The notes beneath the pieces were generated by a model that worked only from the letters and a program-made list of their open reading frames with translations, was not told the origin of the DNA and searched no databases. DNA of 64,000 nt from contig NZ_VOHK01000003.1 of the NCBI RefSeq assembly GCF_007859325.1, positions 372,001-436,000 on the forward strand. The letters run 5' to 3'. This document shows positions 7,468 through 46,055 of this stretch, one piece after another. Both the position numbers and the translations under genes were made by a program. The stretch is from Luteimonas marina. Lineage in GTDB: Bacteria > Pseudomonadota > Gammaproteobacteria > Xanthomonadales > Xanthomonadaceae. The first letter of the stretch is position 1. Each line of letters opens with the position of its first letter.

Positions 7468-7481
7468 ACCGTTACGCTTCT

Positions 7482-7514
7482 CCCGATTCCCGATTCCCGA
7501 TTCCCGATTCCCGA
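7482..7514. repeat. CCCGATT heptamer array abutting the creB start codon
   Basis: Four perfect tandem CCCGATT units (7482-7509) followed by CCCGA and then the creB ATG at 7515. The array occupies the place where a ribosome-binding site should be. Slippage would change the spacing in 7-bp steps. Confidence 0.9.
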
Positions 7515-41569: not shown

Positions 41570-41597
41570 AATCACCAATCACCAATCACGAATCACC
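41570..41597. repeat. AATCACC heptamer array before the dnaQ start codon
   Basis: Four tandem 7-bp units (AATCACC, AATCACC, AATCACG, AATCACC) end 4 bp before the dnaQ ATG at 41602. As with creB, the array stands where a ribosome site is expected. Confidence 0.9.
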
Positions 41598-41601
41598 ACC
41601 C

Positions 41602-43376: not shown

Positions 43377-46055
43377 TCAGGGGCGCAGGGTCAGCGAATG
43401 GATCGCGGGGCCGGGCAGGAACGGGGTCGGACGGCCGTGGACCCAGTCGTCGTGGCCCGCGCCCCAGAACGGCGACAGCGGGTGTCCGCTCTGGCCACCG
43501 GGCATGTGCATGAAGCCGTCGGCCTCGCGGCCCGGCGAGACCACCATGCGCTCGGACGCGCCGAAGGCCGGCCCCTGCACGCGGGGCATCATCGAATCGC
43601 CCGGCAGCGGGTCGGCGGGCATGCACAGCAGGCGCTTGCCGAGCGGGACCGCGCCCGCCAGCGGGTGGCAGATCGCGGCGGTGTTGAGCTCGCCCCAGGT
43701 GCGCTCGCGCAGCGGGCCCTGGGCCGCGAGTTCGTCGCGGACCTGCTTCGCCGCATCCTCCAGCAGCGCATCCCACGAGGCGAACCGGCGCGGCAGCAGG
43801 TGCGCTGGCCGCTGCTGCAGCAGCGGCCAGGCGACGCCCTCGAACTGCTGCAGCCAGGGCATCGCGAATTCCTCGCCCATGCTGGCGCGGGCCGGCGCCA
43901 ACAGCCCGTCGAGCAGGCGCGCATGCACCGCCTCGCGCCAGGCGCGGACGATGCGGTAGCCGGCCGAATCGACGCTGGCGCGCCCCTGCCAGTCGCTGGC
44001 GGCCGCGGCGAGTGCGTGCAGGGCCGGGGATGCGTCGTCGGCGCCCTGCGCGCGCAGCAGCTCCCACCAGCGCGTCATCAGGATCGCGCGGTCGTCGAGC
44101 TGGATCGCCAGCAGGTCGCGTTCGGTGAAGCGGTCCTTCGCCTGCAGGCCGTCGCGGATCTGGCGCTGGCGCGCGCCGAGGTCGTAGCCGCCGTCGCCGA
44201 TGCGGGCGAGGTCTTCGATGGAGACGACGCGGCTGTTGGCGGTCCACAGGCGCGCGGCGTCCGGCGAGCGGAGGACGGGCGATGCCGCCGTATCGATGCG
44301 CCAGGGCGGGCAGGGTTCGACGGGCTGGCCTTGCGACGGGGGTTCCGGGCCTTGATCGGGGGCCGGAGCGGGAGTGGTGGCATTGGCCACGAGATCGCGG
44401 GTCGGGCACCCCTCGCTGCGACCGGGCAAGGGGCCGAGCAGTCGCCAGGCGACGTTTCCGCCGGAATCGCCGATCACCAGGTTCTGCGTCGGGACCGCGG
44501 TGCGGTCGGCGAGCGCCAGCGCGGCGTCGAGGTCGGCGACGCGCGCGAAGTCCATCAGGCCGAGGTTGACCGAGCCCGGCATCTGCGCGGTCCAGCGCAG
44601 CGACAGCACCTTGCCGTCGGCAAGCTCGTGCAGGATCGGCCCCCAGCGGGTCTCGCGGACTTCGAACTCCACGGGTTCGGCGCCCGCGACCTGAATGAGT
44701 TCGACACGGGTTTCGACCGGTGTGCAGGGATGGCCCGCGCCTTCGGCGTCGGCACGTGCTTCGGCGCACGGCGTTTCCAGCGCCCAGTCGAGGTAGTCGC
44801 CGTAGCTGTTGGTGTAGCCCCAGGCGACATGCCCGTTGCTGCCGACGATCACCGCCGGCAGGCCCGGCAGGGTGACGCCCTGCACGTCGACGCTGCCGCC
44901 CGGCGCCGCCGCGTCCGGCCAGCGCAGCCGCGCGCGGAACCACAGGTTGGGCGCGCGCAGGCCCAGATGCATGTCGTCGGCGACGATCGCGCGGCCGTCC
45001 GCGGTCAGCGCACCGGACACCGCAAAGTTGTTGCTGCCCGGAAAGTACCCGGTCGCCGCAGGCGACCAGCCGATGCCTCTCTCCCGCACTGCGGGAGAGA
45101 GGGGGACCGCCAGCGGAGCGGGGGGTGGAGTGAGGGCAACGCTCTGTACGCCCGCCGCAGGCGACCAGCCGATACCTCTCTCCCGCACTGCGGGAGAGAG
45201 GGGGACCGCCCGCGGAGCGGGCGGTGGAGTGAGGGCGACGCCGTGCACGCTCGCCGCGGGCGACCCGCCGATGCCTCTCTCCCGCGAGGAAGAGAATGCA
45301 ACCGCCTCCGCATCCTCCCTATCCGACTGTTCCGGGGCCGGCAGCTTGCGCAGGTCGACCTCGTCGGCGGACGGCAGCCGCGCATCGCCCATCGCCTCAC
45401 CGGACAGCGGCGCGTCCCAGTTGCTGCCCGGATGGGTCAGCAGCGCGTACAGCGCTTCGGGCAGGTGCGGCTGCAGTTTCCACAGCGCCAGCTCGCGGGT
45501 ATTGCCCGCGTCCTGCAGGTCGAAGTACATCGCGTAGCCGGCGAGCGCGGTGTCGGCCGGCTGCCACGGCTGCGGCTGCTGGCGCAGCAGCAGGTACGGC
45601 CACGGCCGCGCGCGCAGCGCGGACAGGCCGGCGTTGACGCCGTCGGCGTAGGCCTGCAGTTGCGGCAGCTTGTCGCCGGCGATCGCGTCGAGGTGGGCAT
45701 CCACACGCGCGCGCATGCGGTGGACGCGGTGGCGCTTGTCGAGGTCGAGCGCGATCGCGCCGAACAGCCCGGACAGTTCGCCCGCCGAGGTGCGCCGCAG
45801 CAGGTCCATCTCGAAGTAGCGCTCCTGCGCGTGCACGTAGCCCAGCGCGCGCAGGGCGTCGGCCTCGTTCGCGGCGTCGATGGTGACCACGCCCAGCGCG
45901 TCGCGCTGGATCGTGACCGGCGCGGCCAGCCCCGCCAGCGCGATGTCGCCGTCCAGCGCCGGCAGGCTGCCGCGCAGCAGCCACCAGACCGCGAGCGCGA
46001 GCAGCGCCACCATGGCCAGCACGGCGATCAGGACGCGCTTGAGCCACTTGCGCAT
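43377..46055 (-). CDS. Penicillin acylase family protein with a 33-codon tandem repeat in the linker
   Basis: N-terminal nucleophile (Ntn) hydrolase of the penicillin/AHL acylase family, made as one chain and cut into alpha and beta subunits. The 892-residue precursor has an N-terminal hydrophobic segment (about 8-27), the alpha part (APVTIQRDALGVVTIDAANE, ALGYVHAQERYFEMDLL) and the nucleophile Ser341 in YFPGSNNFAVSG at the head of the beta part. The beta part includes SNGHVAWGYTNSYGDYLDW and LWTANSRVV. Residues about 253-333, just before the Ser, are encoded by 2.3 tandem copies of a 99-bp repeat and lie in the linker that is normally cut away. Substrate unknown: beta-lactam side chain, acyl-homoserine lactone or another amide. 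Confidence 0.9.
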   Translation of the reverse strand: MRKWLKRVLIAVLAMVALLALAVWWLLRGSLPALDGDIALAGLAAPVTIQRDALGVVTIDAANEADALRALGYVHAQERYFEMDLLRRTSAGELSGLFGAIALDLDKRHRVHRMRARVDAHLDAIAGDKLPQLQAYADGVNAGLSALRARPWPYLLLRQQPQPWQPADTALAGYAMYFDLQDAGNTRELALWKLQPHLPEALYALLTHPGSNWDAPLSGEAMGDARLPSADEVDLRKLPAPEQSDREDAEAVAFSSSRERGIGGSPAASVHGVALTPPPAPRAVPLSPAVRERGIGWSPAAGVQSVALTPPPAPLAVPLSPAVRERGIGWSPAATGYFPGSNNFAVSGALTADGRAIVADDMHLGLRAPNLWFRARLRWPDAAAPGGSVDVQGVTLPGLPAVIVGSNGHVAWGYTNSYGDYLDWALETPCAEARADAEGAGHPCTPVETRVELIQVAGAEPVEFEVRETRWGPILHELADGKVLSLRWTAQMPGSVNLGLMDFARVADLDAALALADRTAVPTQNLVIGDSGGNVAWRLLGPLPGRSEGCPTRDLVANATTPAPAPDQGPEPPSQGQPVEPCPPWRIDTAASPVLRSPDAARLWTANSRVVSIEDLARIGDGGYDLGARQRQIRDGLQAKDRFTERDLLAIQLDDRAILMTRWWELLRAQGADDASPALHALAAAASDWQGRASVDSAGYRIVRAWREAVHARLLDGLLAPARASMGEEFAMPWLQQFEGVAWPLLQQRPAHLLPRRFASWDALLEDAAKQVRDELAAQGPLRERTWGELNTAAICHPLAGAVPLGKRLLCMPADPLPGDSMMPRVQGPAFGASERMVVSPGREADGFMHMPGGQSGHPLSPFWGAGHDDWVHGRPTPFLPGPAIHSLTLRP
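45049..45300. repeat. In-frame 99-bp tandem repeat (family C units) in the acylase gene
   Basis: Copies begin at 45061, 45160 and 45259 (period 99 bp, 33 codons); the third is partial. Each holds the palindrome CTCTCCCGCA/TGCGGGAGAG followed by GGGGGACCGCC and GGTGGAGTGAGGG, as in intergenic family C repeats. Confidence 0.92.

Follow-up and report, generated by a model that had tools for sequence, protein, structure and literature searches.

The gene at positions 43377-46055 (minus strand) of the 64-kb stretch of the Luteimonas marina genome analysed here, which we call the window and to which all plain coordinates refer, encodes an 892 aa precursor of the penicillin acylase family of Ntn hydrolases with an N-terminal membrane anchor. 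Its match to PF01804 spans residues 46-879 and thus the whole length of the family (E-value 8e-130, 435 bits), and the nearest solved structures are the D-succinylase 7ea4/7eby and cephalosporin acylases. The conserved end of the alpha part is the motif DLRKLPAP (residues 235-242; 45330-45353, minus strand), which is kept in the relatives. The linker begins after this motif, which is also where the confidence of the AlphaFold model drops. The alignment to the solved mature beta chains 35sz_C, 2wyb_B and 3jtq_B begins exactly at residue 341, and therefore Ser341 (codon at 45033-45035, minus strand) was assigned as the nucleophile and as residue 1 of the beta chain. In line with a Gly-Ser-Asn nucleophile at the beta N-terminus, G340, S341 and N342 are invariant in 45 relatives. 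Residues 245-337 have pLDDT values below 50 and are flanked by parts above 90, so that this portion of the linker is predicted to be disordered in the precursor.

The linker harbours a tandem array, for which Tandem Repeats Finder gave the borders 45054-45285, a period of 99 bp, 2.3 copies and 91% matches (score 394). The unit closest to the nucleophile (45054-45152) and the second unit (45153-45251) differ at 8 of 99 positions, while the third, partial unit (45252-45309) shows 81% identity across 58 nt and is decayed beyond; all three are on the minus strand. At the protein level the array corresponds to residues 257-334, or to residues 249-334 if the third copy is counted together with its decayed part. 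An initial annotation had described an in-frame 99-bp tandem repeat with 2.3 copies a few residues upstream of Ser341, and this was confirmed by the repeat search and by the reading frame of the acylase; the residue range proposed at that time was about 253-333. The core palindrome of the array had zero chance matches in shuffled sequences. An assembly artefact is an unlikely source of the array, since the full copies are not identical and other genomes have independent arrays. Two other tandem repeats were noticed in the window. The heptamer TCCCGAT (4.9 copies, 100%; 7481-7514) directly precedes the ATG start of a response regulator gene, where a change by its unit of 7 could shift the spacing or the expression of this gene, and the heptamer AATCACC (4.1 copies; 41570-41598) is located immediately before the ATG of a gene for a DnaQ-like exonuclease.

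Alignment of the linker copies of the relatives revealed an ungapped element of 90 nt with three adjacent hairpins. In the L. marina acylase it is present on the minus strand as copy A (45051-45140; 102 bits with the model R1; hairpins at 45106-45126, 45076-45102 and 45051-45067) and copy B (45150-45239; 100 bits; hairpins at 45205-45225, 45175-45201 and 45150-45166). When a covariance model of the element was used for genome scans, matches were found in 32 of 52 Luteimonas genomes, with 1 to 27 matches each, and the number of dispersed copies may be underestimated because the model was built mostly from acylase copies. The L. marina genome contains, besides the acylase copies, one other full-length copy (C18:15826-15916, 77 bits). 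A BLAST search of its own genome with the 99-bp unit alone returned the acylase array as the sole match, but the impression that the repeat is private to the acylase was wrong, as the dispersed copies were revealed by the covariance model. Within the window no second member of the family was found beyond the array, and an Rfam search of the window yielded tRNAs only. Thus, the earlier suggestion that the unit is built from an intergenic repeat (family C) holds at the genome level, with one further full-length copy in L. marina and many in the genus, but it could not have been read from the window, which lacks a second family member.

Most of the examined copies of the element are intergenic, often 8-13 nt beyond a stop codon, and others are in frame within genes. 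The copies L104, L105, L201, L202, L216, L224, L227, L228, L229 and L232 are examples of the REP-like location 8-13 nt past a stop codon, and such copies may act at 3' ends or in termination. In-frame insertion should be easy, because five of the six frames of the element consensus are open. We found no paper describing this 90-nt element in Luteimonas.

In most Xanthomonadaceae examined, the distance between the DLR motif and the glycine preceding the nucleophilic serine is about 18-27 residues and the element is absent, while linkers with a clear element mostly comprise 48-124 aa. The element was found in the acylase linker of 16 Luteimonas genomes and of 5 genomes outside the genus, which include Stenotrophomonas sp. 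SY1, S. daejeonensis and Stenotrophomonas sp. ATCM1_4. All these copies have identical orientation and frame, and their 3' junction is at a constant distance before the serine. Arrays are present in L. marina (G000, 2.3 x 99 bp), in G024 (3 x 93 bp) and, with a different spacer, in G188 (3 x 99 bp); the other linkers have single copies. Five linkers without a match to the model retain a stub corresponding to the 3' end of the element. Hence other acylases of the family do have repeats at the same spot, in 1 to 3 copies, and a conserved non-repetitive linker of one length in all relatives was not observed, since linker lengths vary. The copy number varies as well, the variation seen being between species only.

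How did the element come to be in the linkers of so many acylases? The nearest relatives of acylase copies are almost always the acylase copies of other species and hardly ever copies elsewhere in the same genome. Acylase copies have T12, T41 and A63 in common, while the dispersed Luteimonas copies have C, C and G at these positions. The three diagnostic bases are also present in copies in the ZapE gene of two other genera, so that the acylase copies may represent an older subfamily. Further, within Luteimonas the distances between elements correlate with the distances between beta chains (r 0.55, p 0.0009, 13 species). We therefore favour one old insertion followed by erosion, with the remnant stubs pointing to loss, over repeated insertion. 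A single origin would require many losses, since 11-12 changes in presence are needed on the beta-chain tree (FastTree; gains and losses not separable). This patchy distribution, the weak correlation across all genera (r 0.17, p 0.12) and the recurrent use of a second gene, zapE, would fit to a linker that is a hot spot, with one preferred site that the element reached by independent jumps in several genera. Against the evidence of shared ancestry listed above, we regard such a hot spot as unlikely, and our assessment is about the same if repeated insertion and transfer of linkers between genera are taken together.

Protein-level selection would lead to an excess of divergence at the third codon position. 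Such an excess is seen in the flanking parts of the gene, where the divergence at positions 1, 2 and 3 is 0.20, 0.17 and 0.38 for the beta chain and 0.22, 0.18 and 0.36 for the alpha chain, while for the element it is flat (0.24, 0.22 and 0.23). Thus, the linker DNA evolves without visible constraint at the protein level. This speaks against the alternative that the insert peptide has a function of its own and stays in the mature enzyme, for instance as a proline-rich tail of alpha or as a lid, and so do the linkers of the relatives, which span about 20 to 124 aa, and the predicted disorder of residues 245-337. The frame is nevertheless kept in every case, and in MacQ, a member of the family, the spacer is kept in the crystal and located at the active site (PMC5566955), so that a lid resembling the MacQ spacer is conceivable; all in all, we consider a functional peptide highly improbable.

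At the DNA level, the element is clearly structured. The arms of stem 1 show 20 mismatches, whereas shuffling of the arms among the copies gave an expectation of 63.5 (minimum of 44 in 5000 shuffles), and pairing of the arms is maintained by compensatory changes, mostly from C-G to T-A, although these covariation counts are indicative, as shared ancestry inflates them and the alignment was fitted to the covariance model. Were an RNA hairpin under selection, G-U should be favoured over A-C. However, in the acylase copies A-C cells (35) outnumber G-T cells (14), which disfavours selection on the RNA and argues for a DNA-level process that keeps the hairpin arms. The most straightforward candidate is template-switch (quasi-palindrome) correction, by which, we infer, the arms are kept matched. 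The compensatory changes themselves, the strong fold of the element as a single strand (z -5.7) and its location at the alpha/beta boundary would also be expected if the hairpins served the mRNA, for example by pausing the ribosome between alpha and beta to aid folding, or by stabilizing the mRNA. Since the transcribed strand lacks the G-U excess, most relatives do without the element in the linker and copies are eroded in several species, we regard such a function in the mRNA as improbable.

The acylase is not the only gene that harbours the element in frame. In the gene for the ATPase ZapE/AFG1 it was found in seven genomes, in the orientation opposite to that in the acylase and with three tandem copies in G014; the insertion is located shortly past the P-loop (L226:1518-1785; also L060, L065, L210, L211, L217 and L220). 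An indolepyruvate oxidoreductase-like protein (POR/DUF6537) contains it in G014, G017 and G018 (L200, L205 and L207). Finally, the pre-pseudopilin GspG of G014 (L055:1827-2726) has a prepilin leader of 165 residues, which consists largely of element copies, and the GspG proteins of G018 and G027 have a single copy each at the same junction (L234 and L235). In the G014 gene, the stretch that begins 153 residues upstream of the cleavage site and ends at it contains no in-frame ATG, GTG or TTG, and thus translation has to include the repeats unless it starts at a rarer codon. The prepilin leader of GspG is removed, while removal is not known for the insert regions of ZapE and the POR/DUF6537 protein.

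Several known systems resemble the element in part. The Rickettsia palindromic elements (RPE; Ogata 2000, 2002) are protein-coding palindromes inserted in frame in many genes (PMC10969869). The Luteimonas element is similar in behaviour: the genus scan and the context of the copies revealed a family of short palindromes that is dispersed in intergenic regions and is also in frame in unrelated genes. Unlike RPE, it belongs to Xanthomonadaceae, is a GC-rich unit of three hairpins, is coding in different orientations and frames, and sits in a spacer and a leader which are expected to be removed. REP elements of the GTAG and CGTC super-families have a terminal GTAG/CGTC tag and a stem-loop unit of 20-40 bp (PMC3733652). 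The Luteimonas element shares with them the palindromes just past stop codons, some intragenic and some clustered, but it has no constant GTAG tag, its GC-rich stems are longer and its unit comprises 90 nt with three hairpins. Of 88 copies, 25 have CGTC beside stem 2 and 6 contain GTAG or CTAC at any position. Because of tag and unit size, an identity with REPs as defined in the literature (PMC3733652) was rejected. For the Y1 transposase (RAYT, PF01797) there is one match in the L. marina genome and none was detected in the genomes G014 (12 element matches) and G179 (10 element matches). The palindromic amphipathic repeats named PARCEL (PMC2996958) are also palindromic coding repeats in tandem arrays, but they encode amphipathic repeat proteins, while the Luteimonas peptide shows no protein-level constraint. 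Like the spacer peptides of cephalosporin, penicillin and AHL acylases, the linker described here is located between alpha and beta, before the catalytic serine, and tolerates changes in length; unlike the known spacers, it owes its enlargement to tandem copies of a dispersed DNA element.

Based on these observations, we propose that a dispersed, non-autonomous palindromic element of about 90 nt with three adjacent hairpins became inserted in frame in the acylase gene, where it occupies the spacer that separates alpha from beta. This insertion would be old, passed down within Luteimonas and many times eroded or lost, and in several lineages it would have been amplified through 93-bp or 99-bp tandem duplications. 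In the precursor, the peptide encoded by it would form a flexible loop, and it would probably be released by self-cleavage before Ser341 together with trimming of the alpha end. If so, selection would only keep the frame open and the stretch would evolve as DNA, with template-switch correction as the simplest candidate for the DNA-level process that keeps its hairpin arms matched. Taken as a whole, we consider this account likely.

The initial annotation had suggested that the linker could be a safe harbour, in which an insert is tolerated because it is discarded. Cephalosporin and penicillin acylases release the spacer that lies between their two cleavage sites, and processing can still take place when this spacer is shortened (PMC5566955), so that a flexible insert should cost little; an exception described in the same paper is MacQ, the crystal of which still contains the spacer. 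By analogy, the linker containing the insert is probably cut out at maturation of the Luteimonas acylase, and we infer that the insert is without cost to the enzyme. The view of a safe harbour is further in agreement with the location before the nucleophile, the predicted disorder, the variable length and the unconstrained DNA. Discarding is not the whole story, however: removal may help but is not required, because ZapE and the POR/DUF6537 protein tolerate the element too, and a disordered loop alone may be enough. It is nevertheless tempting to speculate that segments which are cut away at maturation, such as the Ntn-hydrolase spacer and the prepilin leader, are long-term refuges for a dispersed palindromic element, where protein-level selection is absent, palindromes are corrected at the DNA level and the insert grows and shrinks by tandem duplication. 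We put this forward tentatively, as an idea that is somewhat more likely to fail than to hold.

The element in the acylase gene is of interest for several reasons. It provides a clear example, from free-living bacteria, of coding DNA that has structure at the DNA level while its protein product is seemingly neutral, and the removal of the peptide is a plausible reason for this neutrality. Thereby an old question becomes testable, namely how a selfish palindrome can live within a gene and how the match of its arms is maintained. Last but not least, natural length variants of acylase spacers are supplied for work on self-processing.
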